The notes under the pieces are model-generated. The model made no database searches, had not been told where the DNA came from, and saw only the letters and a list, made by a program, of their open reading frames with translations. Shown here piece by piece: positions 6,249-35,578 of a stretch of DNA of 45,980 bases (the stretch's first letter is position 1; each line of letters starts with the position of its first letter). The DNA is taken from the NCBI GenBank assembly GCA_026415235.1, contig JAOAHM010000015.1, positions 1 through 45,980 on the forward strand, written 5' to 3'. Made by a program: the position numbers and the translations under genes. The DNA comes from Ignavibacteria bacterium. GTDB lineage: Bacteria > Bacteroidota > Ignavibacteria > Ch128b.

Positions 6249-6257
6249 GGGGGTCTT

Positions 6258-14690: not shown

Positions 14691-14708
14691 TTTAATCTAA
14701 TCCTCCTT

Positions 14709-15737: not shown

Positions 15738-15749
15738 ATCCCTCACCTT

Positions 15750-17084: not shown

Positions 17085-17551
17085 TTTTCTCCTTTATGAA
17101 TTTGGTTTGCCAATTCTAAAGACACTTGATAAAACTTTTGCATTGCTGAAAGATATTCTCGTTGTTCTTCGATTGGAATTTTTTTTAAGAGTTTTTCAAA
17201 AAATGCTTTGTTTTCAATTACATGTTGTTCGATAAATTTTTTGCCTTTGTTTGATAGACTCAAAGTAACTTTCCTTCTATCTTCTGGTGAAATTTTTCTT
17301 TCCACATATTTCATCTTCACAAGACGATCTACTAATTCCGAAGCAGAACTTTGAGCAATTACCATTTTTTCGGCAAGCTCTTTTAATGTAATGTTTGGAG
17401 TGTGACATATATACTGAAGTGCTGTTAACTGTGTGAGAGTTAACTCTGATTTGAACAATGTTGGGTTAAGCTTAAACATTACTTCCCTAAATTTATAACC
17501 TAATTCCATTAGTTCTTTAATTATGTTCTCAGTTTCTTGATGTTTAGTCAT
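17081..17551 (-). CDS. MarR family transcriptional regulator
   Basis: A MarR-type winged-helix repressor of about 156 aa. The DNA-binding helices lie around residues 54-80 (ITLKELAEKMVIAQSSASELVDRLVKM) and the wing is SPEDRRKVTLSLSNKG with the typical D-R-R. I choose the ATG at 17551, since GGAG stands 6 nt ahead of it; an in-frame TTG at 17563 would lie inside that site and adds only four residues. It is the first gene of the efflux operon and probably represses it, with release by a small aromatic or toxic ligand. A 9-bp inverted repeat lies 25-51 nt upstream. Confidence 0.93.
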   Translation of the reverse strand: MTKHQETENIIKELMELGYKFREVMFKLNPTLFKSELTLTQLTALQYICHTPNITLKELAEKMVIAQSSASELVDRLVKMKYVERKISPEDRRKVTLSLSNKGKKFIEQHVIENKAFFEKLLKKIPIEEQREYLSAMQKFYQVSLELANQIHKGEK

Positions 17552-17575
17552 TCGGTTCTCCAATTATTAGAATAA

Positions 17576-18047: not shown

Positions 18048-19676
18048 ATGATTGAAGTTTTTTCATACATAGATGCGATTGTGCTTCTTCTTTATTTCAT
18101 CCTAATCTTGAGCTTGGGCTTTTACTATTCTCAACGAAATGATGATACTTATGAAAATTACTTTCTCGCTGGTCGAAACATACCGTGGTTTGTAGTAGGC
18201 ATTTCCATATTTGCGACAAATATTTCGAGCGAGCATTTTATTGGTTTAGCTGGTGCTGGTTCAATGCGGGGACTTGCTGTTGGTCAATTTGAATTAATGG
18301 CAATTTTCACTTTGCTTTTCCTCGGTTGGTTTCTTGTTCCAATTTATTTCAAGACAGGTGTGATTACTATCCCTGAATTTTTGGAAATAATTTTTGATAG
18401 ACGAATTAGAAAATTCTTCGCTCTTTTTTCTGTTTTAATTTACATCTTCACAAAAGTATTAGTATCGCTTTTTGCTGCAGGTTTGCTTTTTTATGATTTG
18501 TTTGGTTTAAACATTTATACTTCTTCAATCTTGATTGTTTTGATTACAGGTCTTTACAGTGTAATTGGTGGTTCGAGTGCTGTAATTAGAACACAATATT
18601 TTCAAGGTATAATTTTAATCTTAGGAGCTTTTATAATTTCAATCTCTGGATTTTTTGCAGTTGGTGGCTTCGAAGGAATTTATTCAAAAGTCCCGCAAGA
18701 ATTTTATAATATGTTTAAGTCAATAAATGATCCTGACTACCCGTGGACGGGAATAATATTTGGAGCTCCAATTATTGCATTTTGGTATTGGTGTACAGAT
18801 CAGTACATCGTTCAAAGATTATTAAGTGCTAAATCAATTGATCAAGCAAGAAAGGGAAGTCTATTTGCTGCTTCATTAAAAATTCTTCCAATTTTCATTT
18901 TAGTTTTTCCTGGAATTTTTGCGTCAATTCTTTTTCCAGAATCAAAAGGTGATGGAGCCTATTCGGCTTTGTTGTATAGCGAAATTGTTCCGCATGGTTT
19001 GAAAGGATTTGTAATTGCTGGGGTTTTAGCTGCGATAATGTCTTCATTAGCTGGTGTATTTAATACAATTTCAGTTTTGTTTACAAATGATTTTTATAAG
19101 ATTAAACATCCTGAAGCAAGTGATAGAAAATTAATTCTAATTGGTCGACTTTCAACAACTGCTGCTGTTGTAATTGCAATTTTAATTGTACCTTTAGTTA
19201 AAGTAATCACTTCTCAAATTTATCTTTTCTTACAAAGCGTACAATCTTTTGTTAGTCCTCCAATCACAGCGGTTTTTTTGTTTGGATTGTTTTCCAAAAA
19301 AATGTCAGCTAAAACAGCAATTATCACATTGATTGTAGGAGAAGTGATAGGGATTTTCCGATTAGTTTTACAATTGCTTTATGATAACGATGTGATACTT
19401 CATCCTTTCTTATTGAAAATTTTAGAAATTAATTTCCTTCACTTTTCTATTCTTCTATTTTTACTTTGTGTAGTTCTAATCAAAATTGGAAATGAAATTT
19501 TTAAGACAAAAGAGTCTGCAACTTCATTTAAAATTGATTTGATGATTAAAGAAAGTTATCAAGAGATAGTTCTAAATTTTAAAAGAGTGTTAGAAGTGAA
19601 AAGACTAAACCCAAATTTTGTTATTTCCGTTTTTATTGTTTTTGCAATCATTCTACTGTGGAGTGTTTGGAATTAA
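18048..19676 (+). CDS. Sodium:solute (SSS) symporter, sugar type
   Basis: A 542-aa inner-membrane protein with about 13-14 hydrophobic helices, the size and pattern of the SSS family. The N-terminal YYSQRNDDTYENYFLAGRNIPW and the ATNISSEHFIGLAGAGS segment are typical of the SGLT-like branch. YWCTDQYIVQRLLSAKS corresponds to the conserved W-C-T-x-Q-x-(I)-VQR-x-L-x-AK signature of Na+/sugar transporters such as Vibrio SGLT. It should take up a monosaccharide, probably glucose or galactose, with sodium. Its position 33 nt before the surface glycan-binding gene and at the head of the beta-glucan locus supports glucose release products as substrate. Confidence 0.9.
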   Translation: MIEVFSYIDAIVLLLYFILILSLGFYYSQRNDDTYENYFLAGRNIPWFVVGISIFATNISSEHFIGLAGAGSMRGLAVGQFELMAIFTLLFLGWFLVPIYFKTGVITIPEFLEIIFDRRIRKFFALFSVLIYIFTKVLVSLFAAGLLFYDLFGLNIYTSSILIVLITGLYSVIGGSSAVIRTQYFQGIILILGAFIISISGFFAVGGFEGIYSKVPQEFYNMFKSINDPDYPWTGIIFGAPIIAFWYWCTDQYIVQRLLSAKSIDQARKGSLFAASLKILPIFILVFPGIFASILFPESKGDGAYSALLYSEIVPHGLKGFVIAGVLAAIMSSLAGVFNTISVLFTNDFYKIKHPEASDRKLILIGRLSTTAAVVIAILIVPLVKVITSQIYLFLQSVQSFVSPPITAVFLFGLFSKKMSAKTAIITLIVGEVIGIFRLVLQLLYDNDVILHPFLLKILEINFLHFSILLFLLCVVLIKIGNEIFKTKESATSFKIDLMIKESYQEIVLNFKRVLEVKRLNPNFVISVFIVFAIILLWSVWN

Positions 19677-19709: not shown

Positions 19710-22193
19710 ATGAAAAAACTTTTCAACATTTTTCTTACGGTTTTCTTTTTAACCTCGATTACATACGCACAGAGCTATATAATCGAGAGTTTTGATTCTA
19801 ATTTGTCACAAGATAATACTTGGCAATTCCTTCATGAAGGTCCACCCAGCAGAATTGATTATTCTCTCAACACAACAGATAAAGTTGAGGGAACAGGTTC
19901 TGCATTGGTGAAATTTGTAATTGGTCCACATCATCCATGGGGAAGTTATGCTCAATTGATTAAAACACTCCCAGCAGATGCTACACCATGGAATTGGACA
20001 ATTTCTGATTCACTTTCAATTTGGATTAAAGTTGTAACGCCTCCAACAATTCCTGCAAATATGGTTTTCAGGATTCATATTAAAGATAGGCCCACAGGTG
20101 CATCAAACATTGAAGAGTGGATTTATCAGCATAATACAATTATTGATGCAACAACAAATTGGGTAGAATTACGAATACCTTTGAAGATTTTGGATTCAGA
20201 AGGTAATTCAGATCCAAGTGATCAAGGTTTTGTAATTTTCCCATCAAGTTGGGGTGGTTCTTCTTTTTGGAATAATAAAAAATTTGATGCTGATAAAATT
20301 GTTGGCTTCAACATTGCTGCTGTAACGGTTGGATGGAATCCAAGTGGCAACATTCCAGCTGATTCTCTTGTAGTTCAATTTGATGGTTTCCGAAGATTTG
20401 GATTGAAAGCAATTCCAGCAGTTATTTTTAATGGAATGACATTCCCATCTCATATTTCCAATGTATGGGCATGGGGGCAATCAACTGTTGAAGTTGTAAA
20501 AGGTGCTGGTCCAATTCAAAATTCAAATGCAATCAAGTGGACGCAAGGAAATGAATGGGGTAACGGTTGGACAGGTTGGGGAATGGATATCAATCCTCCG
20601 TTTAATCTTGCTGGTGCCTGGCCTAAAGATACTTGTAAAATAAAATTAAAATGCCCACCGGGAACTGGTCCATTAAGAATTCAATTTGAAGGTGGTACTG
20701 GTAAAGTTGGAAAAGTTTTCCAACCAATTGCTGATGGTCAATGGCATACCTATTTCTTTCCATTAAGAGAAATGGAATATCAAGATAATACGAGCAACTT
20801 CGATTCATCCGCAGTTCATATTGTTGGACTTATGGCTCAAGCTTCTGGTGTTGCGGGTCGTGTTATTTGGATAACCGATTGGTGGACAGGTAATCCAGAG
20901 TTTGATGTAATTCCACCAAATCCTCCAGGTGGTGTAATGGCAATCGCAGGTACATTTCAGAATATAGTCACTTGGCAAGATGTTCCAAACGAAATAGGTG
21001 AAAAGTACAACATTTATTATAGCCGTAATCCAATAACAAATATCAATGCACCTGGAGTTGAAGTAGTTAAACTAAATGTTCCAGAAAACACTCAACTTAT
21101 TGAACATCTCCTCTTTTCACCAAATACTAATCAAAGTGTAACTTACTATTATGCTGTAACTTGTGTCGATGCATCAGGAAACGAAAGTGATGTTAGTGTA
21201 AATTCACAACCAGTTACAAATACTGCAAGAGGAGTTGCAACAATTTCACTCAATCCACCAAACTTTAATCCTGATGGAGATTTAACAGAATGGTCTCACA
21301 TCAGACCATTTAGAATGTTCCCATCAGATGGTAGTGGTCATATTGTAACTAATACAACAATTAATGGTGATAACGACTGCTCAGCAAATGCTTATGTAGC
21401 TGTTAATCAATCATACTTGTATGTCGCTTTCGATGTAAATGATGATATCTTTTCACCATCAGGTAATCCATCTTCTTGGTTGAACGATGCACCAGATATT
21501 TACATTGGTCTTTATAACTGGCGAGGATTACCTCATACAAATTATCAACGAGGAGCACAACCTGATTATCATATTAGATTTACATATAACAGAATCTTAG
21601 GTGATGCACCAAGTGGAATACTCGATACACTAGGTCCGAACTATTACATTGGTCCAAAATTCCCAACAGGTTATGTTGTCGAAGCAAGAATTCCATGGAC
21701 TGCTTTGGCTGCATTAGGCAATGATAACTTATTCACACCTGTTGAAGGATTCAGAATTCCAATTGATTTCTCTATAAATGACAGGGATAATGGACCAGAG
21801 AGAGAAGGAATCTTAACTTACTCACCATATAATGAAGATCAATCATGGCGAGATGTTTCAAGATGGTTATATACTTGGATTGGAAATCGTTGGGATCCAC
21901 TTTCGGTTGAAAGACAAGATGTTATGGTGAAAGATTATCAATTGTATCAAAATTATCCTAATCCATTCAATCCAACGACTGAAATTCAATTCGCTTTACC
22001 AAAACAAGATTATGTAACTTTGAAAGTTTATGATGTCTTAGGAAAAGAAATCTCAACCTTGATTGAAGGAGATTTACAGCCTGGAGTATACAAAGTTAAA
22101 TTTGATGCTGGTAAACTATCCACAGGAGTCTATTACTATAGATTGACATCTGGCTCATTTAGTCAGACGAAGAAGATGATGATAATCAAATAA
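19710..22193 (+). CDS. T9SS-exported multi-CBM surface glycan-binding protein
   Basis: An 827-aa secreted protein without a recognisable catalytic domain. Signal peptide at 1-20 (ending TYAQ). Residues ~22-225 and ~228-400 are two beta-sandwich modules with Trp-rich, CBM11/CBM30-like character. Residues ~405-505 are a fibronectin type III-like domain (PPNPPGGVMAIAG, YYYAVTCVDASGNES). Residues ~518-730 resemble a CBM9/DOMON domain (DGDLTEWSHIRPF, LYVAFDVNDDIFSP, VVEARIPWTAL). Residues ~743-827 are a textbook T9SS type A sorting domain (YQNYPNPFNPTTEIQF). It should be anchored on the cell surface and hold glycan near the TonB receptor, taking the place of a Sus surface binding lipoprotein. A GAGGTGA site precedes the ATG, and a hairpin follows the gene. 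Confidence 0.83.
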   Translation: MKKLFNIFLTVFFLTSITYAQSYIIESFDSNLSQDNTWQFLHEGPPSRIDYSLNTTDKVEGTGSALVKFVIGPHHPWGSYAQLIKTLPADATPWNWTISDSLSIWIKVVTPPTIPANMVFRIHIKDRPTGASNIEEWIYQHNTIIDATTNWVELRIPLKILDSEGNSDPSDQGFVIFPSSWGGSSFWNNKKFDADKIVGFNIAAVTVGWNPSGNIPADSLVVQFDGFRRFGLKAIPAVIFNGMTFPSHISNVWAWGQSTVEVVKGAGPIQNSNAIKWTQGNEWGNGWTGWGMDINPPFNLAGAWPKDTCKIKLKCPPGTGPLRIQFEGGTGKVGKVFQPIADGQWHTYFFPLREMEYQDNTSNFDSSAVHIVGLMAQASGVAGRVIWITDWWTGNPEFDVIPPNPPGGVMAIAGTFQNIVTWQDVPNEIGEKYNIYYSRNPITNINAPGVEVVKLNVPENTQLIEHLLFSPNTNQSVTYYYAVTCVDASGNESDVSVNSQPVTNTARGVATISLNPPNFNPDGDLTEWSHIRPFRMFPSDGSGHIVTNTTINGDNDCSANAYVAVNQSYLYVAFDVNDDIFSPSGNPSSWLNDAPDIYIGLYNWRGLPHTNYQRGAQPDYHIRFTYNRILGDAPSGILDTLGPNYYIGPKFPTGYVVEARIPWTALAALGNDNLFTPVEGFRIPIDFSINDRDNGPEREGILTYSPYNEDQSWRDVSRWLYTWIGNRWDPLSVERQDVMVKDYQLYQNYPNPFNPTTEIQFALPKQDYVTLKVYDVLGKEISTLIEGDLQPGVYKVKFDAGKLSTGVYYYRLTSGSFSQTKKMMIIK

Positions 22194-22217: not shown

Positions 22218-22253
22218 AAGCGAGGCGGTTAGTAACCGCTTCGCTTTTGAATT
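22218..22253 (+). terminator. Strong hairpin between surface protein and TonB receptor genes
   Basis: A 13-bp stem, AAGCGAGGCGGTT (22218-22230) with AACCGCTTCGCTT (22234-22246), has one G-U pair and a 3-nt loop, followed by a T-rich stretch. It lies in an otherwise AT-rich gap, so its GC-rich stem stands out. It may terminate or attenuate the transcript, or stabilise the 3' end of the upstream message. The GC-rich form also resembles mobile repeat hairpins of the type seen near 45.5 kb. Confidence 0.65.
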
Positions 22254-22290: not shown

Positions 22291-25014
22291 ATGAAAATAA
22301 AAATTAAGATGGGTGAGTATCAGAAAAATAATTGGCTTACTTTTGTCACTCTGATTTTTCTTACTTCAATGAATTTTTTGTTTGCTGGAACAACTGGAAA
22401 GATTGTTGGAAAAGTTGTGGATGCTCAAACCAACGAACCAGTTGTAGGTGCAAATGTAATTGTTGAAGGAACTTTTCTTGGTGCTGCTGCAGGAATTGAT
22501 GGTTTTTACTCAATTAATAATGTTCCACCTGGAAAATACCGATTGATTGCTTCTGCTGTTGGTTATCAAAAAACAATTGTTGAAAATGTTCTTGTGAAAA
22601 TTGATTTAACAACAAGAGTTGATATTAAGTTAACCAGCGCAGTAATTCAATTAGAGAAAGAAGTAATTGTAACTTCAGAAAGGCCACTTGTTCAGAAAGA
22701 TTTAACTTCCACTTCAGTTACAATTTCAAGTGATGATATTAAGATGATGCCAGTTGAAAGTGTGAATAGAATTGTTAACCTTCAGGCTGGTGTAATTGAT
22801 GGACATTTCCGTGGTGGAAGAGCAAATGATGTTGCTTACTTGATTGATGGTGTGTTGGTTACTGACCCATTTAATGGTGGTTTTAACATTGAAATTGAAA
22901 ACACTTCAATTCGTCAAATGGAAGTTATCACAGGTACTTTTAATGCTGAATATGGACAAGCTCTATCTGGAGTTGTGAATATTGTTACAGAAGGTGGTTC
23001 GGATAAATTCAGAACAGATTTTAGTGCCTACACTGGAAATTTCTTTACTACCCATTCAGATATTTTCAGAAATCTCGATCGAATGGATCGAGTCTCACAA
23101 AGAAATTTTCAAATTACTTTAAGTGGACCTTTGAAGCCATTTAAAAATCTTTATTACTTTTTAACTGGAAGATATTATCACGATATTGGTCACCTCTATG
23201 GAAAAAGAGTTTATAACACTTGGGATGATGTTCCTTTCTATCCCAATCCATTAGATAAATCGGTTTGGATTCCACGAAATACAGGTGATGGTGCTTATGT
23301 ACCAATGAATCCATTCACAAAGTATTCTGCAAATGGAAAATTAACTTACGCTCTCCCTTCAATTGTTCTTTCTTATTCTTTCTTTTATGACAAAACAAAA
23401 AATAAATATTATGACCATTACTGGTCGTGGACTCCCGATGGTATGATGACTCATTATGGAAACGATTGGATACATACTTTACAAATGACTCATTACATCT
23501 CTTCAAATACTTCACATAGTTTTAAGTTCACATTCAACAATTACAACTTTAAGGGATATCTTTACGAAGATCCTTATGACCCAAGATATGTTGACCCACG
23601 ACAGGGAATTGCTATCTCGAGTTATACTTTTCGGTCTGGTGGAAATCAAGGCGGAAGATATAAAAGATTCACTCGGTCTTACATCGCACAATGGTCAATT
23701 TCATCGCAGATAAATAAAGAACATAAAATTGGTTCGGGATTTGAGCTGAGATATCATCACATATATAATCATTACATGGATTTGATTAATCTTACTGAAG
23801 GTCAAATTGATTCACTTGGAAGAAATATTTTCACTCCAGGTTATCCTGATAAAGGTACAATTACAGATCGTGGTTCACATATTGAGTATGTAAGATTTCC
23901 TTATGAAGCTTCCGCATACATTCAAGATAAGATGGAATACGATATAATGATAATTAATGCTGGTGTGAGGTTCGATTATTTCAATGCGAATGCAAAACTT
24001 CCTGCAGATAAAAAGAATCCAACTCGTAATCCCAATTTCCCAGGTTACAACGAATGGGTAAAAGCAAAACCAAAAATGCAAGTAAGTCCCAGACTTGGTG
24101 TTTCATTCCCAATTACAGATAAAGGAATAATTAGATTTTCTTATGGTCACTTCTTCAAAATTCCAAACTTCGAAAATCTCTATGCTAATCCCGAATTTGT
24201 TGTACAACCTGGAAATGCTCTAAGTTCAATAATTGGAAATCCTGATTTGAATGCTGAGAAAAATGTGATTTATGAACTTGGATTACAACAGGTCTTGATG
24301 GAAGATTTAGCTCTTAATGCATCTGTTTATTACCGTGATATTCGTAATTGGCTCGGAATGGAGATTGTAAATACATACGAAGGTTTTAAGTATGCACGTT
24401 TCATTAATAGAGATTATGCAAATGTTCGTGGTTTGATAGTCACGCTTGATAAAAGATTTTCAAATTACTTTGGTGCTAAGTTAGATTATACTTATCAAAT
24501 AGCTGAAGGTAATGCCTCCGACCCTTACGCAGTTTACAATTACAACCAAACAAATCCACCAATTGAAGAATCAAAAACAGTTGTTCCACTTGATTGGGAT
24601 CAAAGGCATACACTTAATTTAAGTGTGACTGTTGGTATTCCAGGAAATTGGTCGGCTGGGTTAATATTTCAATATGGTAGTGGTATGCCATACACAGAAG
24701 ATATAAAAATTTCGAGAGGAGTAAGGTTTGAGAATGGTGGTCGTGAACCAGCTTTCTTCAATCTTGATTTACGAGCAGATAAAAATTTCAAATTATTCGG
24801 ATTAAATATTTACGCTTATGCAATAATCTACAATGTACTTGATATCAAGAATGAAGTTGGTGTTTATTCAACTACTGGTCGCGCTACTGCTGATTTGAAT
24901 GTGAAGTATGCAGGCGAGATTATTGGATTGAATACGATAGAAGAGTATATCAAAAATCCTGCAATGTATTCAGCACCAAGACAAATTCGTCTTGGGTTAG
25001 GATTTCAATTGTAA
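22291..25014 (+). CDS. TonB-dependent receptor with carboxypeptidase-like N-terminal domain
   Basis: A 907-aa outer-membrane receptor. After a signal peptide (to about residue 33, ending LFAGT) there is a carboxypeptidase regulatory-like beta-sandwich (GKIVGKVVDAQTNEPVVGANV to about 118), then a plug domain (~125-235: SERPLVQKDLTST, FRGGRANDVAYLIDGVLV, FNAEYGQALSGVVNIVTEGG) and a 22-strand barrel ending with the aromatic-terminal LGLGFQL. The architecture is that of SusC-like receptors, yet no SusD partner follows. It should import glycan fragments or another large ligand using TonB energy. The next two genes follow at 18 and 14 nt spacing, so the three form a tight operon. Confidence 0.92.
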   Translation: MKIKIKMGEYQKNNWLTFVTLIFLTSMNFLFAGTTGKIVGKVVDAQTNEPVVGANVIVEGTFLGAAAGIDGFYSINNVPPGKYRLIASAVGYQKTIVENVLVKIDLTTRVDIKLTSAVIQLEKEVIVTSERPLVQKDLTSTSVTISSDDIKMMPVESVNRIVNLQAGVIDGHFRGGRANDVAYLIDGVLVTDPFNGGFNIEIENTSIRQMEVITGTFNAEYGQALSGVVNIVTEGGSDKFRTDFSAYTGNFFTTHSDIFRNLDRMDRVSQRNFQITLSGPLKPFKNLYYFLTGRYYHDIGHLYGKRVYNTWDDVPFYPNPLDKSVWIPRNTGDGAYVPMNPFTKYSANGKLTYALPSIVLSYSFFYDKTKNKYYDHYWSWTPDGMMTHYGNDWIHTLQMTHYISSNTSHSFKFTFNNYNFKGYLYEDPYDPRYVDPRQGIAISSYTFRSGGNQGGRYKRFTRSYIAQWSISSQINKEHKIGSGFELRYHHIYNHYMDLINLTEGQIDSLGRNIFTPGYPDKGTITDRGSHIEYVRFPYEASAYIQDKMEYDIMIINAGVRFDYFNANAKLPADKKNPTRNPNFPGYNEWVKAKPKMQVSPRLGVSFPITDKGIIRFSYGHFFKIPNFENLYANPEFVVQPGNALSSIIGNPDLNAEKNVIYELGLQQVLMEDLALNASVYYRDIRNWLGMEIVNTYEGFKYARFINRDYANVRGLIVTLDKRFSNYFGAKLDYTYQIAEGNASDPYAVYNYNQTNPPIEESKTVVPLDWDQRHTLNLSVTVGIPGNWSAGLIFQYGSGMPYTEDIKISRGVRFENGGREPAFFNLDLRADKNFKLFGLNIYAYAIIYNVLDIKNEVGVYSTTGRATADLNVKYAGEIIGLNTIEEYIKNPAMYSAPRQIRLGLGFQL

Positions 25015-25032
25015 ATAATCAGGAGATTAAGA

Positions 25033-28000
25033 ATGTTGAGGAAATTAGTTTCACTTATACTTTTAGTTCTCTTAGAAATTTCATTTGCCCAGATACCTTA
25101 TCAAATTCAATTATATCGTGATGAACCAAAAGGGAACATCCAATTTCGCCGTGAAGGTGTGATGGATGGAAATCAAATTAGAACATTATTTTATAACAAT
25201 GGCGAAGTTGGACAATGGCCCTATCAACCATCAGGTGAATGGCCTAAAGGTAGTGGTCATTCTTATCTCGATGGTGTTTGCGTTTTAATTGCTTCAGAAG
25301 TTCGTGCACCAGGTACTGGTCAGATTATTCATCCGCTCGAATCGTCTTATCGCGAATGGATGGATAAAGATCCTGTGACAGGTGAAATATGGGGACTTGA
25401 ACCAGTTCCAGGTTATGTTAATCCAAGTTCAACTAAACCTGCAATTAATACCGACCCAAAATCTTGGCCCTTAGTTTGGCCCAGAGCATTAAATCTGACA
25501 CCTGAATGGAATGGTTACTGGTACGGTTACTTCGGGCGTGGTGTGATGAATTCTGATTTCGAAACATTTTTTGTAATGGATGACTCCAGAGATAAAGAAT
25601 TTACTCGCGCACCTTTTCTCTACTTTCCAATTGCTGCTGATTCTGACCGTGGTGGACTTGGATTAAGAGTTGAAGTTAGAGGTTTTCAATGGTCTCATGT
25701 GCTTGCAGAAGATATCATCTTCTGGCATTATGATATTGTAAATATTTCAGATTACAACTATCCAACTACTGTATTTGGATTTTACACAGATTGCGGAGTT
25801 GGAGGAACAAACGACTCGGGTGATGACTGTGCTTCTTTCGATTTGAAACTTGACTTAGCCTATTGCTATGATAACGATGGACTTGGTTTACCAGATTATT
25901 GGAAGACAGGAATGTATGGTTACGCTTATCTTGAAAGTCCAGGTAACCCATGGAATGGAATTGATGATGATTTAGATGGATTAATAGATGAAAGAAGAGA
26001 CGATGGAATTGATAATGATGGAGATTGGCAACCTTACACTGACTTAAATGGAAATGGTAAATGGGATAGAGAAGAAAATGAACCATTGAATGATGATGTT
26101 GGAAGAGATGGTGTTGGACCATTTGATCGACAATATCTCGGACCTGATGAAGGAGAAGGTGATGGATTACCAACCGATGGCGAACCTCATTTTGACAAAA
26201 CTGATAAAGATGAATCTGACCAAATTGGATTAACAGCAGTTTCAATTTATCGCCTTGGCGAAGGTGGAACAGGTGGAGGCTGGCCTAAAGATGATGAATC
26301 AATGTGGCTCAAGATGGTTGCAGGTACATTCGACACTTCACTCCAACGGTCAAATATTTCAATGGTATTTGCATCTGGTCCATTCCCATTGAATAAAGGA
26401 TTAAGAGAAAGATTTTCCATGGCTTTAGTTTTTGGTGAGAATTTAGCTGATTTAGTTTTCAACAAAGAAACAGTTCAACAGATTTATAACGCAAACTATA
26501 ACTTCTCGAAACCACCATTAAAACCAAAACTAACTGCTGTACCAGGTGATAGAAAAGTATTTTTGTATTGGGATAATATTGCAGAAGAATCGAGAGATCC
26601 TTTCCTTGGTTATGAAGGTGGTGACCCAAGAAAAGGTTATAAAAAGGATTTTGAAGGTTATTTAATCTACCGAAGTCAAGAACCTGAATTTAATGACATA
26701 AAAGTAATTACTGATTCAAGAGGACTTCCTCGTTACTGGAAACCAATTGCCCAATTTGATAAGATTGATGGAATTAAAGGTCCTGATCCAGTTGGAATTA
26801 ATGGCGCTCATTTCTGGAGAGGTGACGATACAGGTCTACAATATTCTTATGTTGATACCGATGTAAAGAATGGTGTAACTTACTATTATGCTTGTGTTTC
26901 TTACGATATGGGTGATCCAAATTATGGAACAACAGGATTACAACCGAGCGAATGCACAAAAATAATTACAGTTGATTATGCAGGTAATGTTCAATTTGTT
27001 GATATCAATTGTGCAGTTGTTACGCCCAATGCACCTGTTGCAGGTTATGTACCTCCACAAATTCAAGGTGATACAAAACAAGTAACAGAAGGTGTTGGGA
27101 CAGGTTCAATTCAATTTCATGTCTATGACCCAAGACTTGTTGAAGACAATACTCGATATGAAATTGTTTTCAAATCAACGAATGATTATCCACTCTATAA
27201 AACACAATCTTATAAAGTCATAAAAACTAATGGAAGTGGAATAGATACAATTCTTACTGTTGATACAACTTACATTGGAGCTGGTCGTGTAAGTCCTCCA
27301 TTTGATGGTTTAGCTTTAACAGTAATAAATGATACAACAGTTACAATAATTGATTCATTAACTGGTTGGTTAGTTGGAAATAGTAATCTTGTGATGATGG
27401 CATTTCCAGATCAAACACCAATTCGTGGTGTTCCCTGGCCTGCAGATTACGAAATAACATTTTATGACAGTCCTGCTGATACATGTTATATTTCCTCTCC
27501 GCCACTATATCGAAGATTTCCAGTTAACTTTAAAGTTTATAACAAAACAGAACAAAAGTATTGCAAAATTGCTGTTCAAGATCGAGATCAGTCACAATCA
27601 CTAACATTAGGTGATGTGATTCAAATTCTTGAATTTAAAGATAGAATAATCAATCTAGCTAATATTCGTTTTGCTTGGAACATCACTTATAATTCACCTA
27701 CAAATCCTAATGTAACCCCAATCTTTCCAAAAGGTGGAGATAAGTATGTAATTACAACGAGAAAACCATTTAAGACAGGAGACAAATTTGTAGTAACAAC
27801 AAAAGCAGCAACAACTGATAACTCACTTGCAAAATCACAGTTATCAAAAATTGATGTTGTACCAAATCCATATCTCGGTGCTGCTGCATGGGAAAAAAGA
27901 AATCTCAACACTACTGGTCGTGGTGAAAGAAAAATTGATTTTATTAATCTTCCTCAGAAATGTACAATTAGAATTTACACTCTTTCAGGACAGTTAATAA

Positions 28001-28155
28001 AAACAATCCATAAAGATTCATATTACTTAGATGGAACTGTTTCCTGGAATTTAATCACTGACGATGGAATGGAAGCGGCTTATGGCGTTTATGTTTATCA
28101 TGTTGATGCCCCTGGAATAGGAGAATACATCGGCAAATTTGCATTAATTAAATAA
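25033..28155 (+). CDS. Large secreted protein partner of TonB receptor, unknown function
   Basis: A 1040-aa protein I cannot assign to a named family. Signal peptide at 1-19 (ending SFAQ). Residues ~20-305 are Trp/Tyr/Gly-rich and likely beta. Residues 310-360 form a very acidic stretch (DDDLDGLIDE, DNDGDW, DLNGNGKWD) resembling calcium-binding EF-hand or thrombospondin type 3 loops. Around 500-660 are fibronectin-like segments (PKLTAVPGDRKVFLYWDN, VTYYYACVSYD). The end (~942-1040: VVPNPYLGAAAW, IRIYTLSGQLIKTI, AAYGVYVYHV) looks like a FlgD/T9SS sorting domain. An AGGAG site precedes the ATG. It lies between the TonB receptor and the PorV-like gene, so it is probably surface exposed and could be the substrate-capturing lid that SusD provides elsewhere. 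That role is inference. Confidence 0.8.
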   Translation: MLRKLVSLILLVLLEISFAQIPYQIQLYRDEPKGNIQFRREGVMDGNQIRTLFYNNGEVGQWPYQPSGEWPKGSGHSYLDGVCVLIASEVRAPGTGQIIHPLESSYREWMDKDPVTGEIWGLEPVPGYVNPSSTKPAINTDPKSWPLVWPRALNLTPEWNGYWYGYFGRGVMNSDFETFFVMDDSRDKEFTRAPFLYFPIAADSDRGGLGLRVEVRGFQWSHVLAEDIIFWHYDIVNISDYNYPTTVFGFYTDCGVGGTNDSGDDCASFDLKLDLAYCYDNDGLGLPDYWKTGMYGYAYLESPGNPWNGIDDDLDGLIDERRDDGIDNDGDWQPYTDLNGNGKWDREENEPLNDDVGRDGVGPFDRQYLGPDEGEGDGLPTDGEPHFDKTDKDESDQIGLTAVSIYRLGEGGTGGGWPKDDESMWLKMVAGTFDTSLQRSNISMVFASGPFPLNKGLRERFSMALVFGENLADLVFNKETVQQIYNANYNFSKPPLKPKLTAVPGDRKVFLYWDNIAEESRDPFLGYEGGDPRKGYKKDFEGYLIYRSQEPEFNDIKVITDSRGLPRYWKPIAQFDKIDGIKGPDPVGINGAHFWRGDDTGLQYSYVDTDVKNGVTYYYACVSYDMGDPNYGTTGLQPSECTKIITVDYAGNVQFVDINCAVVTPNAPVAGYVPPQIQGDTKQVTEGVGTGSIQFHVYDPRLVEDNTRYEIVFKSTNDYPLYKTQSYKVIKTNGSGIDTILTVDTTYIGAGRVSPPFDGLALTVINDTTVTIIDSLTGWLVGNSNLVMMAFPDQTPIRGVPWPADYEITFYDSPADTCYISSPPLYRRFPVNFKVYNKTEQKYCKIAVQDRDQSQSLTLGDVIQILEFKDRIINLANIRFAWNITYNSPTNPNVTPIFPKGGDKYVITTRKPFKTGDKFVVTTKAATTDNSLAKSQLSKIDVVPNPYLGAAAWEKRNLNTTGRGERKIDFINLPQKCTIRIYTLSGQLIKTIHKDSYYLDGTVSWNLITDDGMEAAYGVYVYHVDAPGIGEYIGKFALIK

Positions 28156-28169
28156 GTGGAGTTGGGAAA

Positions 28170-29201
28170 ATGTTAAAGAAAATTTTTAGTTCATTTCTGA
28201 TTTCATTAATTATTTTCAATGTAGCTCTTGCTCAAACTTTTAAAACAAATGTTTCGAAGCGTGGAACAACTGCTGCCACTTTTCTTTCGATTGGACAAAG
28301 TGCAAGAGCTATTGGAATGGGGTCTGCTTTTGTTGGGGTTGTAAATGATGTCAGCTCGATTTATTGGAATCCCGCAGGTTTGACTAAAGCTCAAGGTGGT
28401 CAGGTTATGTTTGATCACACAAGATGGATTGCTGGAACTGAGTATAATTTTCTTGCTGTAAGTTATAACATTGGTGACTATGGAACTGTTGGAGTAAGTT
28501 TTATCGGTTCAAATATTGGTGATATGAAGGTTACAACAATTGAAGAACCTTGGGGAACAGGTGAAGTCTTCTCGGCAACTGATATGGCAATTAGTATTGC
28601 TTATGCGTTACAATTGACAGATAGATTTTCAATTGGTTTCAATCCAAAATTTGTTTATCAAGGAATTTGGAAAATGAGTGCAAGCGCCTTTGCAATTGAT
28701 ATGGGCGTTCAATATGTGACTCCTTTCGATGATGCCATTCTTGCAATGTCTATTTCAAATTTTGGAACCGAGATGAGATTATTAGGTCAATCAAATCTTG
28801 TACTTTATGACCCAGATCCATTTACAACTGGAAATAACAACAAAATTCCTGCTTATCTCGAAACAAAAGATTGGGCATTGCCACTAACTTTCAGAGTAGG
28901 TGTTGCTTATAATCCAATAAAATCTGAAACACATCGTTTAACTTTCGCATTTGATGCACTTCATCCAAGTGATGATTACGAAAGTGTCAATTTAGGATTT
29001 GAATATGGCTTTGAAGATTTTCTTTTCTTAAGAGGTGGTTATAAATCATTGTTCCTTGATGACTCCGAAGAATCTTATGCTCTTGGTTTTGGTGTGAAGA
29101 AAAATTTAATTGGTAATGTGGCTATTAAAGTTGATTACGCTTATCAAGATTTTGGTCGTTTAAATAACATTCAAAAGTTTTCTCTGACAGTTTGTTTCTA
29201 A
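28170..29201 (+). CDS. PorV/PorQ family outer-membrane protein
   Basis: A 343-aa beta-barrel-like protein. Signal peptide at 1-22 (ending ALAQT). The segment SARAIGMGSAFVGVVNDVSSIYWNPAGL (residues 44-71) is the hallmark of the PorV/PorQ (FadL-like, UPF0164-like) family, where the NPAG box lies in the N-terminal plug. The C-terminus ends in an aromatic Cys-Phe, typical of outer-membrane barrels. PorV in T9SS shuttles cargo from the translocon to the attachment complex, but many members sit beside TonB receptors with unknown roles. Here it closes the receptor / 1040-aa protein / PorV-like set and is followed by a strong terminator. A GGAG site precedes the ATG. Confidence 0.9.
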   Translation: MLKKIFSSFLISLIIFNVALAQTFKTNVSKRGTTAATFLSIGQSARAIGMGSAFVGVVNDVSSIYWNPAGLTKAQGGQVMFDHTRWIAGTEYNFLAVSYNIGDYGTVGVSFIGSNIGDMKVTTIEEPWGTGEVFSATDMAISIAYALQLTDRFSIGFNPKFVYQGIWKMSASAFAIDMGVQYVTPFDDAILAMSISNFGTEMRLLGQSNLVLYDPDPFTTGNNNKIPAYLETKDWALPLTFRVGVAYNPIKSETHRLTFAFDALHPSDDYESVNLGFEYGFEDFLFLRGGYKSLFLDDSEESYALGFGVKKNLIGNVAIKVDYAYQDFGRLNNIQKFSLTVCF

Positions 29202-29214
29202 TAAAATCGCTCTC

Positions 29215-29253
29215 AACCCCGATACTTTTCAGGGTATCGGGGTTCTTTTTTAT
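29215..29253 (+). terminator. Rho-independent terminator after PorV-like gene
   Basis: An 11-bp perfect stem, AACCCCGATAC (29215-29225) with GTATCGGGGTT (29234-29244), is followed by CTTTTTTT. This is the clearest intrinsic terminator in the window. It marks the end of the unit that includes the TonB receptor and separates it from the glycoside hydrolase genes, which must therefore have their own promoter in 29254-29341. Confidence 0.9.
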
Positions 29254-29341: not shown

Positions 29342-31168
29342 ATGAATAAAATTAATTCAATTCAATTGAAATTGTTTTTCTACTTTTCGGTTCTTTTTTT
29401 CTTAATCATTTTATCAGATCTTTTTTCAAAAGATTTCAAAGGGGCTGAGTTTAGAACAAAACAAACTTTTCTTTACGGACGATTTGAAGTTAGGATGAAA
29501 TCAGCCTATCGTTCGGGAATGCTTTCATCATTTTTCACTTATCACGAGTTTACGGGTGGAATACAAAATTGGAACGAAATTGACATCGAAATACTTGGAA
29601 GATATCCAAATGATATTCAATTCAATACAATTACTTCGGGACAAACAAATCATGTAAGTCATTATCCGCTTCCTTTCTCACCTCACGAAGATTTTCATGT
29701 TTATGCATTTGAGTGGACACCAACTTATGTGGCTTGGTTTGTTGATGGTGTAGAAGTGTATCGTCAAACGGGAGAGCATATTCCAACATTAAACAAACCT
29801 CAGAAATTGATGATGAATATTTGGAATCCCGAAGCTCCAAATTGGGCTGGTGAATTTCTACCCGATGCATTACCTGCTTTTGCTTATTATGATTGGGTAA
29901 AATATTACATATATACTCCAGGTTCAGGAAATTATGGAACAGGAAACAATTTTACTTTTTCATGGTCCGATGATTTTAATTACTGGAATACCTCACGATG
30001 GGATAAAGCAACTCACACTTGGGTTGGAAATGGTTGCGACTTCATTCCCGAAAATGCTGTCCTAAGAGATGGATATTTAATCTTGTGTCTAACCAATGCA
30101 ACCAATATTGGCTACACAGACACCAAAGGACCAGTTCTTTTATCTGCAAAAGTTCATAACGGAAAAATCTTAGTTAATTTTTCTGAAGAGTTGGATGAAG
30201 TTTCAGCTCAAACTAAATCAAATTACATTATCTATGGAGTAACTGTAGATACTGCAAAATTACTCTCCGATAAAAAAACAGTTGAACTTACGGTTTCAGG
30301 TTGGGATTTTATTTCTCCAAAAACTTTAGTCGTAATGAATGTGAAAGACGATTGGGTTCCTGCAAACACAATGAGTCCAAAAGCTGTCAACATTATCAGT
30401 CAAACTCAATTTAATTTTCCGTTGAAGATAAATTGTGGTGGACCTGCTGCGCTCGGATATTTACCCGAACAAAGCTGGACACTTACTTCTGACTACGGTT
30501 CAATTGATGGTGGCAATTCAACCTTTTCATTTAGCATTAACAACACCGATGAAGATGAAATTTACCAATCCGAAAAATGGGGAATGACAACTTATCGTGT
30601 TCGAATTCCAAAAGGTGTATATAAAGTTAAGTTAATGTTTGCTGAAAATTATCACAATCAAGCGGGTCAAAGAATTTTCGATGTTTGGATTGAAAACGAA
30701 AGAGTTCTACAAAATTTTGATGTATATGCTCTTGTTGGTAAAAGTACTGCTTATGTGAAAGAAGTTAACAATGTTCAAGTTAACGATGGATATTTAGATA
30801 TTTACTTCGTTACTCACAAAGATAATCCAATGATAAATGGAATTGTAATTGATTTAATTTCACTTGATGTTAACGATAAATTAAACTTAGAAGAAAAAAA
30901 ATTTACCTTACATCAAAATTTTCCAAATCCATTCAACGGGCAAACTAAAATTACTTATTCTATTCATAAGCCAGACTTTTATTTTTTCCGATTGTATGAC
31001 ACTCTTGGTCAAGAAATTTTGAACAAAGACCTCGGTTATCTAAATCAAGGAAATTATTCTTTTAATCTAAATTTAAGTGAAGGTTTAAATCTTTCTTCAG
31101 GAATTTATCTTTACACTCTCAATAACAGAAACTCTTTTCAAACCAAAAAAATGGTTTTGTTAGATTAA
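29342..31168 (+). CDS. Circularly permuted GH16 lichenase with malectin and T9SS domains
   Basis: A 608-aa secreted endo-beta-1,3-1,4-glucanase candidate. After an N-terminal signal anchor, residues 30-190 hold KGAEFRTKQTFLYGRFEVRMK, the catalytic EIDIE motif (nucleophile E79, D81, acid/base E83) and WTPTYVAWFVDG. The piece that normally opens a GH16 domain (SWSDDFNYWNTSRWDK to RDGYLILCLT) follows at 207-250. This is the same natural circular permutation known in the Fibrobacter succinogenes lichenase, and the local sequence resembles that enzyme. Residues ~262-350 are an Ig-like domain, ~360-508 a malectin domain (LKINCGGPAALGYLPE, RIFDVWIENERVL), and ~520-608 a T9SS sorting domain (HQNFPNPFNGQ). 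It should cut mixed-linkage beta-glucan outside the cell. It is 19 nt upstream of the GH3 gene. Confidence 0.92.
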   Translation: MNKINSIQLKLFFYFSVLFFLIILSDLFSKDFKGAEFRTKQTFLYGRFEVRMKSAYRSGMLSSFFTYHEFTGGIQNWNEIDIEILGRYPNDIQFNTITSGQTNHVSHYPLPFSPHEDFHVYAFEWTPTYVAWFVDGVEVYRQTGEHIPTLNKPQKLMMNIWNPEAPNWAGEFLPDALPAFAYYDWVKYYIYTPGSGNYGTGNNFTFSWSDDFNYWNTSRWDKATHTWVGNGCDFIPENAVLRDGYLILCLTNATNIGYTDTKGPVLLSAKVHNGKILVNFSEELDEVSAQTKSNYIIYGVTVDTAKLLSDKKTVELTVSGWDFISPKTLVVMNVKDDWVPANTMSPKAVNIISQTQFNFPLKINCGGPAALGYLPEQSWTLTSDYGSIDGGNSTFSFSINNTDEDEIYQSEKWGMTTYRVRIPKGVYKVKLMFAENYHNQAGQRIFDVWIENERVLQNFDVYALVGKSTAYVKEVNNVQVNDGYLDIYFVTHKDNPMINGIVIDLISLDVNDKLNLEEKKFTLHQNFPNPFNGQTKITYSIHKPDFYFFRLYDTLGQEILNKDLGYLNQGNYSFNLNLSEGLNLSSGIYLYTLNNRNSFQTKKMVLLD

Positions 31169-31187: not shown

Positions 31188-33413
31188 ATGAAAAATCAAT
31201 TTTTTCTAATTCTTATGATGTTTATTCAAATTCCATTTACTGCTCAATCACAAACGATTGAAGAAAGAGTTAAAGAGCTTCTTTCCAAGATGACAATTGA
31301 AGAAAAAGTTGGTCAAATGACGCAAGTTACGCTTGAAGTTGTCTCTAAGAAACAAGGAAACAAAAATCAAAATCATGAACTTGACGAGAAAAAGCTTGAA
31401 GATGCAATTGTAAAGTATAAAGTCGGTTCAATTTTGAATGTTTATGATGTTGCTCATTCAATTGATTACTGGCATGAGGTAATTACAAAGATTCAGGATA
31501 TAGCAACGAAGAAGACGAGATTAGGCATTCCAGTAATTTATGGAATTGATGCAATTCATGGTGCAACATACACAAAAGGTGCAACACTATTTCCACAAGC
31601 ACTTGCGGTTGCTTCAACTTTCAATAAAAAAATTTCAGAACGCATTGGTGAGATTACATCAATAGAAACTCGAGCAAGTGGAATTCCTTGGAATTTTTAT
31701 CCTGTCATGGATTTAGGTCGTCAGCCTCTCTGGCCACGATTATGGGAAACATTTGGAGAAGATGTCTATTTAGCTCAACAAATGGGTGCTGCTTACATTA
31801 AAGGTGCACAAGGTGATGATATAAGTCGGCCAGATAAATTAGCTACTTGTTTGAAGCACTATGTTGGTTATAGTTTTCCATTTAATGGTTTTGATAGAAC
31901 ACCAGCTTACATGTCCGAAAGAACTTTGAGAGAATATTTCCTTCCACCATTTGAAGCTGGTATTAAAGCCGGTTCAAAAACTGTAATGGTTAATTCAAGT
32001 GAAGTTGATGGAATTCCAGGACATGCTAATTATCATCTTCTTACAGAAATCTTAAGACATGAATTGAAGTTTGATGGATTTGTTGTTTCTGATTGGGAAG
32101 ATATAAAACGATTACATACGAGAGATAGAATTGCTTCAACTCCTGAAGAAGCAGTAAGAATTGCAGTGATGGCTGGAGTTGATATGAGCATGGTTCCTTA
32201 TGATTTCAGTTTTTATGAAATTCTTGTAAAGTTAGTGAAGGAAGGTAAAGTTCCGATGTGGAGAATTGATGAAGCAGTAAGTAGGATTTTGAAAGTGAAA
32301 TTTGAACTTGGATTGTTTGAAAATCCTTATCCAAAAAAAGATTACTTGAAATTATTCGCATCTCCAGAGCACACTCAAGCTAATCTTGATGCAGCAAGAG
32401 AATCAATTATTCTTGCTAAGAATGAAAATAAAATTTTACCACTTAAGAAAAACATTAAAGTATTTGTTACTGGTCCAACTTCAAATAAACTTTCACCATT
32501 AAATGGTGGTTGGACTATTACTTGGCAGGGAAACGAAGAGAGTCTATATCCTCAAGAAAAAAGTACAATCCTCGAAGCAATACAACAAAAAATAGGTTCG
32601 AAAAATGTTTTATTTGAAGAAGGAGTTTCTTTCGATAAAGAATTGAATTTGAGCTCAGCACTTCAAAAAGCAAAACAATCGGATGTAATTATTCTTTGCC
32701 TTGGTGAACCAGCTTACTGTGAAACCCCTGGAAACATAAACGACTTAACACTACCCGAAGCTCAGTTAAATTACGCACAAAAACTTATTGCTACTGGTAA
32801 ACCTTTAATTCTTGTAATGGTTGAAGGAAGACCAAGATTAATCACAAAAATTTTTGATAAAGTTAAAGGTCCATTAATTGCATTCTTGCCTGGCATGGAA
32901 GGAGGAAATGCAATTGCTGATATTCTTTTTGGTGATGTAAATCCTTCTGGTAAGTTGCCCATCAGTTATCCTAAATATCCAAATGCAATTGTTCATTATG
33001 ATTATAAACCAATAGAAAATTCTGGTGAAAACAAATATGATCCACTCCTGCCTTTTGGATTTGGACTAAGCTATACTCAATTTTCCTATTCAAATCTGAA
33101 GTTGAATAAAACAGAAATGACCGAAGATGATGAAATTATAGTTTCAGTTGATGTGAAGAATGAAGGTTCAATTGCTGGTAAGGAAGCTGTACTTATGTAT
33201 GTTACAGATTTATATGGACAAGTTTCTCGTCCGAATAAGCAATTAAAAGGTTTTGAAAAAATTGATTTGAATCCAGGTGAAACAAAAACAGTTCAGTTCA
33301 AAATAAATAAAGAACATCTTTCGTTTATTGGTTTGGAAAATAAAAGAATTATTGAACCTGGTGAGTTCATCGTAACGATTGGAAATCTTCAACAAAAATT
33401 TTACTTGAAGTAA
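31188..33413 (+). CDS. GH3 beta-glucosidase / exo-beta-glucanase
   Basis: A 741-aa glycoside hydrolase family 3 enzyme. Signal peptide at ~1-21 (FTAQSQ). The N-terminal (alpha/beta)8 barrel carries KHYVGY and the nucleophile D302 in VVSDWEDI. The C-terminal alpha/beta sandwich holds GEPAYCETPGNINDLTLP, where E512 matches the acid/base of the plant ExoI-type enzymes. A fibronectin III-like domain typical of GH3 (~655-725) ends the protein. There is no T9SS sorting domain, so it should stay in the periplasm and cleave imported beta-gluco-oligosaccharides to glucose. The SDWEDI and ETPG context resembles broad-specificity beta-1,3/1,4-glucan exohydrolases. It is likely co-transcribed with the GH16 gene. 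Confidence 0.94.
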   Translation: MKNQFFLILMMFIQIPFTAQSQTIEERVKELLSKMTIEEKVGQMTQVTLEVVSKKQGNKNQNHELDEKKLEDAIVKYKVGSILNVYDVAHSIDYWHEVITKIQDIATKKTRLGIPVIYGIDAIHGATYTKGATLFPQALAVASTFNKKISERIGEITSIETRASGIPWNFYPVMDLGRQPLWPRLWETFGEDVYLAQQMGAAYIKGAQGDDISRPDKLATCLKHYVGYSFPFNGFDRTPAYMSERTLREYFLPPFEAGIKAGSKTVMVNSSEVDGIPGHANYHLLTEILRHELKFDGFVVSDWEDIKRLHTRDRIASTPEEAVRIAVMAGVDMSMVPYDFSFYEILVKLVKEGKVPMWRIDEAVSRILKVKFELGLFENPYPKKDYLKLFASPEHTQANLDAARESIILAKNENKILPLKKNIKVFVTGPTSNKLSPLNGGWTITWQGNEESLYPQEKSTILEAIQQKIGSKNVLFEEGVSFDKELNLSSALQKAKQSDVIILCLGEPAYCETPGNINDLTLPEAQLNYAQKLIATGKPLILVMVEGRPRLITKIFDKVKGPLIAFLPGMEGGNAIADILFGDVNPSGKLPISYPKYPNAIVHYDYKPIENSGENKYDPLLPFGFGLSYTQFSYSNLKLNKTEMTEDDEIIVSVDVKNEGSIAGKEAVLMYVTDLYGQVSRPNKQLKGFEKIDLNPGETKTVQFKINKEHLSFIGLENKRIIEPGEFIVTIGNLQQKFYLK

Positions 33414-33534: not shown

Positions 33535-33592
33535 TAATTTATTTAAATAATCAACTCAAATCTTTCACATTAAATTGCAGAGAGGAGTTGTG

Positions 33593-35578
33593 ATGAAGTC
33601 CCTTAAAATTTTAGTTTTTGTAATTGCTTTAATTACAATGCAATTAAATTTATTATGGGCAATTGGATTCCTCAAAGTTCAGGGCAAAAAAATTGTTGAT
33701 GGAACAGGACAAGAATTTTATCTAAAAGGAATGGGCTTAGGTGGTTGGTTGCTTCAAGAAGGTTATATGATGCATACATCATCTTTTGCAAATGCACAAT
33801 GGCAAATTAGGCAGAAAATTGTTGAGCTTATTGGAGAAACTAACACTGAAATTTTTTATGAAACTTGGAGAAAAAATTTTATTCGTAAGATTGATATTGA
33901 TTCATTGAAAGCTTGGGGATTTAATTCTGTTCGTTTACCATTTCATTGGAATTTGTTTGCAACAAATACAAATCCGCCACAGTTCTTAAACAAAGGTTTT
34001 GAAATTATTGATTCACTTCTTGCTTGGTGTGAGGCAAATCAAATTTATCTTATTCTTGATATGCATGCAGCTCCAGGCGGACAAAACGATGAAAATATAA
34101 GTGATTACAATCCTGCTTATCCTTCGCTATGGCAAAGTGAATTTAATAAAGATTTGACCGTAAAAATCTGGAGAAAAATTGCTGAAAGATATAAAGATAA
34201 ACAATGGATTGGTGGTTATGATTTGTTGAATGAACCAAAATGGAATCTCCCACCAAACAATCAACCACTTAGAGATTTATATATTCGAATAACGGATACA
34301 ATTAGAGCTGTTGATACAAATCACATCATTTTCATCGAAGGCAATTGGTACGCAACAGATTTCACTGGTCTTACACCTCCATGGGATAACAATATGGTTT
34401 ATAGTTTTCACAAATATTGGAATTCAAACGACCAATCAAGTATTCAATATTTAATTAATATCAGAAATGATTTTAATGTACCTCTTTGGTTAGGCGAAAG
34501 TGGAGAAAATTCAAACAAATGGATGGTTGATTGTATTGAACTAATGAATCGAAATAACATTGGATGGTGTTGGTGGACACACAAAAAAATTGAAACAATT
34601 GCTGGACCTCTTTCTGTTGTAATGTCTCCATTTTACAGAACTTTACTTAACTATTGGAGTGGTTCAGGTCCGAAACCAAGTGCAAGTTATGCTTTTAACG
34701 CTTTGATGATGCAAGCAGAAAATTTGAAACTCGAACTTTGTGAATTCCGAAAAGATTTTATTGATGCTTTGATGCGTCAACCAAACAACACTCAAACTCG
34801 TCCTTATGGTCAAAACATTATTCCAGGAATTATCTACGCTACTGAATTTGATATGGGCAAATTAAACATTGCTTATTATGATGTAGATTATCAAAATGTT
34901 GGTGGTGGGTCGTGGAACAGTGGAGGAAAATTTAGAAATGATGGAGTTGATATCGAATCATGTACCGACTTGACTTCTAATGGTTATAATGTAGGTTGGA
35001 TTCAAAATGGAGAGTGGTTGAGATACACATGCAAGGTTACTCAATCTGGTAACTACAAAATTAAACTGAATGTTGCATCAATGAATTCAAATGGTCAGAT
35101 ACTTCTACGATTGAATGGACTAATTCTTGGCAGTTTCATAAATGTTCCAAATACAAATGGTTGGCAAAACTGGCAACTTGTAGAATTAAATAATGTTTAT
35201 CTTCCAGCTGGCACTCATCAACTCGAAGCTCGTTTTTACAATGGTGGGTTTAATTTAAGTCACTTCGAATTTGAATTGCTATCTACAAAGGTTAATGAAC
35301 TTGAACACAAACCAAATCAACTCGAACTTTTCCAAAATTATCCCAATCCTTTCAATTCAAAAACAATAATTACTTATTCAATTCCAGAAGCTGATAATGT
35401 GAAACTTTTACTATACGATAGCTTGGGTAATCATGTTATGACAATTGTAGATGAGTTTAAAAATCCAGGTAAATATCTTGAAGAAATTGACTCAAAGTTT
35501 TTATCGAGCAGTTCTTATTTCTTAAAACTTCAGACGAGTAAAAATTCGATTACGAAAAAGATAATGGTTTTGAAATGA
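33593..35578 (+). CDS. GH5 glucanase with CBM6 and T9SS sorting domain
   Basis: A 661-aa secreted glycoside hydrolase family 5 enzyme. I start at the ATG at 33593, with AGAGGAG 5 nt ahead; an in-frame TTG six codons upstream would put that site inside the gene. Signal peptide to ~residue 23. The GH5 barrel spans ~25-390, with acid/base E214 in LLNEP and nucleophile E302 in LWLGESGE; DMHAAPGGQND resembles exo-beta-1,3-glucanase-type members. Residues ~412-555 are a CBM6 (DGVDIESC, YNVGWIQNGEWLRYT). The end is a T9SS sorting domain (FQNYPNPFNSK). It likely attacks beta-glucan (1,3- or 1,4-linked) outside the cell. Its stop overlaps the next start by four bases (ATGA). Confidence 0.92.
   Translation: MKSLKILVFVIALITMQLNLLWAIGFLKVQGKKIVDGTGQEFYLKGMGLGGWLLQEGYMMHTSSFANAQWQIRQKIVELIGETNTEIFYETWRKNFIRKIDIDSLKAWGFNSVRLPFHWNLFATNTNPPQFLNKGFEIIDSLLAWCEANQIYLILDMHAAPGGQNDENISDYNPAYPSLWQSEFNKDLTVKIWRKIAERYKDKQWIGGYDLLNEPKWNLPPNNQPLRDLYIRITDTIRAVDTNHIIFIEGNWYATDFTGLTPPWDNNMVYSFHKYWNSNDQSSIQYLINIRNDFNVPLWLGESGENSNKWMVDCIELMNRNNIGWCWWTHKKIETIAGPLSVVMSPFYRTLLNYWSGSGPKPSASYAFNALMMQAENLKLELCEFRKDFIDALMRQPNNTQTRPYGQNIIPGIIYATEFDMGKLNIAYYDVDYQNVGGGSWNSGGKFRNDGVDIESCTDLTSNGYNVGWIQNGEWLRYTCKVTQSGNYKIKLNVASMNSNGQILLRLNGLILGSFINVPNTNGWQNWQLVELNNVYLPAGTHQLEARFYNGGFNLSHFEFELLSTKVNELEHKPNQLELFQNYPNPFNSKTIITYSIPEADNVKLLLYDSLGNHVMTIVDEFKNPGKYLEEIDSKFLSSSSYFLKLQTSKNSITKKIMVLK

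Follow-up and report, generated by a model that had tools for sequence, protein, structure and literature searches.

Can a TonB-dependent receptor that has no SusD beside it nevertheless work with a dedicated surface partner and, if so, what would hold that partner in place? The question arises from a 45,980-nucleotide stretch of DNA from an Ignavibacteria bacterium (assembly GCA_026415235.1, contig JAOAHM010000015.1, positions 1 to 45,980; hereafter the window), in which a receptor gene is followed by genes for a large secreted protein and an outer-membrane barrel. We refer to these as T (TonB-dependent receptor), B (big secreted protein) and V (PorV-family barrel), and to the three together as the triad. 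The source genome, at 88.8% completeness, is a draft of 2.14 Mb spread over 97 contigs; among named organisms its nearest relatives belong to Ignavibacteriaceae and elsewhere in Ignavibacteriales. It encodes SprA and PorU of the type IX secretion system (T9SS), with its own PorV gene immediately 3' of PorU. The features of the triad are as follows.

22218..22246, forward strand: terminator-like hairpin 5' of the triad (13-bp stem, T-rich tail)
22291..25014, forward strand: T, TonB-dependent receptor of 907 aa (PF07715 and PF00593 above cut-off)
22402..22665, forward strand: carboxypeptidase-regulatory-like N-terminal domain of T (CarbopepD_reg_2, PF13715)
22696..22974, forward strand: plug domain of T (PF07715)
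25033..28155, forward strand: B, secreted surface protein of 1040 aa, all-beta and family-less (AlphaFold2 mean pLDDT 82.8)
25033..25089, forward strand: signal peptide of B, signal peptidase I type, no lipobox, mature start Q
25963..26079, forward strand: acidic D-rich loops of B, possible calcium sites, family-conserved
27835..28152, forward strand: C-terminal sorting domain of B, VVPNPY class, kin to the C-terminal domains (CTDs) of PorZ and PorU
28170..29201, forward strand: V, PorV/PorQ-family 14-strand outer-membrane barrel of 343 aa (NF033709 and structural model)
29215..29244, forward strand: intrinsic terminator 3' of the triad (13 pairs)

The three open reading frames (ORFs) are adjacent, and the gaps, on re-measurement, are 18 nt between T and B and 14 nt between B and V, in agreement with the original prediction of a tight three-gene module. 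That prediction also placed a hairpin before the module and an intrinsic terminator after it. These two structures prove to be the best terminator-like hairpins, and the sole ones of 13 pairs, between 18000 and 37900, where all others have 8 pairs or fewer; their folding z-scores against shuffled sequences are -4.6 and -5.4, respectively. The upstream hairpin is the end of the unit to which the preceding CBM9 gene belongs.

T had been described as a SusC-like receptor, a description that stands in part. Its Plug and TonB barrel domains (Pfam) identify it as a TonB-dependent receptor, a profile of T (A5) matches the structures of FepA, Cir, SusC and RagA, and the carboxypeptidase-like and plug domains are present as described. 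Membership in the SusC/RagA family, on the other hand, is rejected: T scores 51 bits against model TIGR04056, whose cut-off is 368, and the match covers only about 120 N-terminal positions. Triad receptors from ten genomes match this model in the same partial manner, and among these ten a SusC above the cut-off occurs only in G050 and G085.

The claim that the partner of T is not SusD is upheld at several levels. The SusD families PF07980 and PF14322 are absent from the genome of the window and from its family (0 of 6 genomes); SusD occurs in 29 of the 99 genomes of the class. G050 carries a genuine SusCD pair as well as the triad, so that the two systems coexist in places. B itself begins, as predicted, with a signal peptidase I leader, cleavage falling between MLRKLVSLILLVLLEISFA and the mature Q, and of 102 B proteins only 3 have a lipobox-like motif. 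AlphaFold2 models B as a nearly all-beta protein. Three acidic D-rich loops (aa 311-349) are kept across the family, which agrees with the acidic region noticed earlier; the loops are possible calcium sites. No relative of the whole protein was found in Pfam, NCBIfam or the PDB sequences. In whole-model comparisons, the likeness to PorZ is confined to local domains (TM 0.10), while GH94/GH149 phosphorylases are matched with probability 1 but a TM of about 0.19. Two identities for B were considered and rejected, that of an enzyme, since B matches no catalytic family, and that of a disguised SusD, given the all-beta model and the absence of SusD profiles.

What remained of the description of B was its sorting-like tail, and here the relationship could be made more precise. 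A profile built from the C-terminal 106 residues of 41 B-family members, searched against the PDB, retrieves the CTDs of PorZ (E=1.4e-6) and PorU (E=6e-4), followed weakly by flagellar FlgD; no other T9SS cargo CTD appears in the PDB at E<=1. The B tail does not match the type A models TIGR04183 and PF18962, which five neighbouring proteins do match; nor does NCBIfam yield, at E<=1, a hit to the type B model or, as regards the barrel, to PorP/SprF. In a held-out test with half-trained models, 59 of 60 B tails, as against 0 of 93 type A tails, were assigned to the B class. Judged by sequence, B tails thus form their own class of T9SS C-terminal domain, apart from the type A tails of their neighbours. 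We infer that the tail of B stays uncleaved, a suggestion limited by the intermediate character of the PorU tails of these genomes, to which the B-tail and type A models give similar scores. With a Sec signal peptide, a CTD matching those of PorZ and PorU, and a genome bearing SprA and PorU, B has the general features of T9SS cargo.

V is, as anticipated, a PorV/PorQ-like barrel. It scores 213 bits against the PorV family model NF033709 (cut-off 90), and falls below the equivalog cut-offs of PorV (NF033710, 71 of 250 bits), PorQ (NF033711, 103 of 220) and PorV2 (NF052325, 94 of 325). The structural model is a 14-strand barrel (pLDDT 86.6) whose best matches are PorV in 8gl6 (T9SS, CTD-bound) and in 6h3i (translocon); BamG, TodX and FadL rank lower. 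In a tree of V, triad barrels separate from the single-copy PorV encoded immediately 3' of PorU, as well as from further small PorV-family groups.

The pairing of B with V recalls several arrangements within the T9SS. In Porphyromonas, PorU and PorZ retain their C-terminal domains, with PorV and PorQ, respectively, as anchors (PMC5562754), while other T9SS cargo have dedicated barrel shuttles encoded directly downstream (PMC12618676). The tail of B is closest to the retained tails of PorU and PorZ, V is likewise a 14-strand barrel of the PorV/PorQ family, and PorU and PorV adjoin in this genome as B and V do. Unlike PorU:PorV and PorZ:PorQ, the triad is multi-copy and tied to a receptor and to glycan genes, and V lies under the three equivalog cut-offs given above. 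SprB-SprF, a type B cargo with its PorP/SprF shuttle, resembles B-V in that one barrel follows directly 3' of each cargo; it differs in that V is of the PorV/PorQ rather than the PorP/SprF family and that the tail of B does not match the type B model. B and V thus fit both the anchored pairs of Porphyromonas and the cargo with dedicated shuttles: a PorV-family barrel gene comes directly after the cargo gene, there are many pairs per genome, and the tail is nearest to the retained ones.

Are the three genes usually apart? Clearly they are not. Among 80 named loci, T is the gene just 5' of B in 77 and V the gene just 3' of it in 75, the exceptions being contig ends save for L228 (Calditrichia), whose order is B-B-T-V. 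Apparent exceptions at L172, L182, L213, L152, L268 and L274 result from ORF pruning or a frameshift, and these are complete triads. The named loci come from Ignavibacteriaceae, Melioribacteraceae, Calditrichota/Caldithrix, Neomarinimicrobiota and Stahlbacteria, mostly as metagenome-assembled genomes, for which lone odd taxon assignments are unreliable; Stygiobacter electus (L173) is a cultured carrier. Twenty more loci, 17 of which belong to other classes of the phylum, were read, and each carries T, B and V. Relatives of B occur in 96 of the 99 genomes of the class, often in multiple copies and in several families as tail-only matches, and in 65 of 158 genomes of a phylum sample in which the tail was not counted (39 outside the class).

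Within single genomes the triad has multiplied. The loci analysed contain nine T...V units in G085, seven each in G032 and G002, five in G000 and four in G034, counts that include two T-V pairs without B between them (L109, L142). Five genomes together contain 54 PorV-family genes, of which 34 have a same-strand receptor plug within 8 kb upstream, where about 2-3% each would be expected by chance. Distance matrices of the T, B and V paralogues of a genome correlate pairwise with r of 0.81-0.98 (Mantel p 0.0004-0.02 in G085, G032 and G002; in G000, with five triads, one of three comparisons gives p 0.07), and distances of the B tail alone correlate with those of V (r 0.70-0.82; of four genomes, three give p<0.05). 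The units have therefore been duplicated as blocks, without reshuffling. Block duplication is equally to be expected of any stable operon, and this, like the two T-V pairs without B, counts against the explanation that we favour below.

An uptake role had also been predicted, and it gains support from the glycan genes and inner-membrane importers that adjoin triads. In the window the neighbours are as follows.

18048..19676, forward strand: sodium:solute symporter (SSF), inner-membrane importer, conserved in the orthologue group
19710..22193, forward strand: CBM9 protein with a type A T9SS tail, conserved in the orthologue group
29342..31168, forward strand: GH16 and malectin protein with a type A T9SS tail, conserved in the orthologue group
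31188..33413, forward strand: GH3, conserved in the orthologue group
33575..35578, forward strand: GH5 and CBM6 protein with a type A T9SS tail, locus context

CotH genes also lie downstream, with GH5-CBM6. The orthologue group of this triad has the order SSF-CBM9-T-B-V-GH16-GH3, and across the class the neighbours are matched 24 (SSF), 20 (CBM9), 20 (GH16-malectin) and 18 (GH3) times, a neighbourhood that points to beta-glucan. Another group, that of L270, is found outside the class as well and comprises LacI, a CBM4_9 T9SS protein, an ABC sugar importer (a solute-binding protein and two permeases) and GH130; at L119, V is followed by a solute-binding protein of the same kind. Other triads adjoin CBM20 proteins, LacI, glycoamylase or GH9. 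A few copies are without nearby glycan genes and adjoin glutamine synthetase/AsnC or cell-division genes instead, which also counts against the explanation that we favour.

In its overall design the triad is akin to SusC-SusD (RagA-RagB): both pair a TonB receptor that bears a carboxypeptidase-like domain at its N-terminus with a surface protein encoded directly downstream, and both occur in many copies per genome, in glycan loci with inner-membrane importers. The differences lie in a receptor below the SusC cut-off, in a partner that is a 1040-aa all-beta T9SS-type protein where SusC-SusD has the helical SusD lipoprotein, and in the addition of a constant PorV-family barrel. Since neither a SusC by the family model nor a SusD partner was found, the triad is not a member of SusCD, though it probably works like one.

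Several elements are directly supported, namely the module, its block duplication, its glycan context, the absence of SusD, the T9SS core, the folds of B and V and the kinship of the tail. On balance, we favour the reading of the triad as a SusC-SusD-like module for TonB-dependent glycan uptake, built by means of the T9SS. In such a scheme, Sec would take B over the inner membrane, and B would then cross the outer membrane through SprA. V would receive it and hold its uncleaved C-terminal domain, as PorQ does for PorZ and PorV for PorU. Fixed at the surface beside T, B would capture an oligosaccharide (beta-glucan at this locus) and pass it to T, which would import it using TonB energy; the inner-membrane step would fall to the neighbouring symporter here and to an ABC importer in other copies. 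Without a lipobox, B needs some other hold on the surface, for which V is the obvious candidate, and the anchoring of B by V is the part of the scheme that we regard as quite likely. A role for B as the capture or lid partner of T seems somewhat probable, T being always present and B thus its natural partner. The three proteins would accordingly be expected to form a physical complex.

Alternatively, B may be a glycan binder and V the shuttle that delivers it to the surface, the two forming a cargo-shuttle pair, with T merely co-regulated and importing without a physical partner. Dedicated pairs without a receptor are known (PMC12618676), and further T9SS proteins that bind or degrade glycans (CBM9, GH16, GH5) are encoded at this locus. 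Against this account, the other T9SS proteins of the locus end in type A tails and lack a private barrel, T adjoins B as strictly as V does, and the distance correlations of T with B and with V are as tight as that of B with V. We consider this account rather unlikely, without dismissing it.

Two further accounts turn on the nature of the barrel and of the tail. V belongs to the FadL superfamily and matches the TodX and FadL structures, as would suit a FadL-type channel for hydrophobic compounds with B as its receptor, importing lipids or aromatics rather than glycans. Yet PorV is clearly the closest structure (E 2e-15 versus 4e-8 for TodX) and the closest PDB sequence, and the glycoside hydrolases, CBMs and sugar importers that adjoin triads make such a channel very improbable. 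We give equally little credence to the triad as the T9SS's own attachment or processing complex, comparable to PorU/PorV/PorQ/PorZ: the tail of B does resemble those of PorZ and PorU, and V resembles PorV, but a single genome contains many divergent triads, each of which includes a receptor and adjoins genes specific to its substrate, and a separate PorU-PorV exists in one copy.

The favoured reading, of an uptake module, has parallels elsewhere. BtuG, the partner of the receptor BtuB, is a surface lipoprotein, unlike B, and BtuB-BtuG is not known to involve a T9SS or a PorV-family barrel. As presented in PMC10404256, these vitamin B12 transporters join a TonB-dependent receptor to a non-SusD surface partner, and they set a precedent for the pairing of T with B. 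Another parallel is the Rhodothermus marinus alginate locus, whose alginate lyases have been tested and in which Figure 2 of PMC9530828 places tonB, hypA and hypB in a row: a TonB receptor, a T9SS sorting-domain protein and a PorV/PorQ family member, in the same order as the triad. The figure and its legend give annotation only, proposing neither function nor module, and the middle gene is 2181 nt. From gene types, order and sizes, this trio appears to belong to the same family as the triad, and as drawn there the alginate locus is independent support for the uptake reading. A literature search that reached few subscription papers or preprints found no published description of the triad beyond this legend. 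There is perhaps an even chance that the triads, multi-copy across Ignavibacteria, Calditrichota, Neomarinimicrobiota and other relatives, constitute a SusD-independent class of three-part TonB uptake machines, in which a T9SS-exported capture protein is permanently held by a private PorV-family barrel, with its tail a third T9SS class.

Members of these phyla degrade polysaccharides, many of them without SusD, and the triad bears on how glycans are captured at their surface. If it is a counterpart of SusCD, receptor-partner uptake would have arisen a second time, from parts of a secretion system, and PorV-family barrels would do more than transient shuttling. Hundreds of unnamed genes of Ignavibacteria, Calditrichota and Neomarinimicrobiota would then gain a testable function, and the three-gene pattern could locate glycan loci that searches for SusD have missed.

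Among the 80 named loci in which adjacency of the TonB-dependent receptor (T), the big secreted protein (B) and the PorV-family barrel (V) was counted, a single rearranged unit was found, in the Calditrichia (L228:601-10247), with the gene order B-B-T-V. A tandem B, consisting of two related proteins of about 600 aa, also lies ahead of V in the triad at L126:8898-12483.

At two loci (L109:8057-11862 and L142:7898-12027) a PorV-like barrel immediately follows the receptor, with the big protein absent between them; each pair is immediately preceded by a 492-535-aa protein without a Pfam family, and an NHL-repeat protein is encoded downstream.

The window additionally encodes the following:

4818-9063: molybdenum hydroxylase genes (FAD/2Fe-2S subunit, molybdopterin subunit), then a NikR-type regulator
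11589-17563, minus strand: an operon for RND efflux, comprising an AcrB-type pump, a membrane-fusion protein and an outer-membrane factor
35575-37230: a protein of the CotH kinase family, which has a type A T9SS tail and closes the beta-glucan locus

PorV-family barrels also occur as a tandem pair, 3' of a 521-525-aa protein (L105:9842-11796, L116, L128, L139 and L144), at a site found once per genome and belonging to no triad; at least some of these preceding proteins carry a T9SS-type tail.

In genome G000, the single-copy PorV gene immediately follows PorU (G000:C37:25698-30163, L097), and this gene pair is likely the model for the B-V arrangement.
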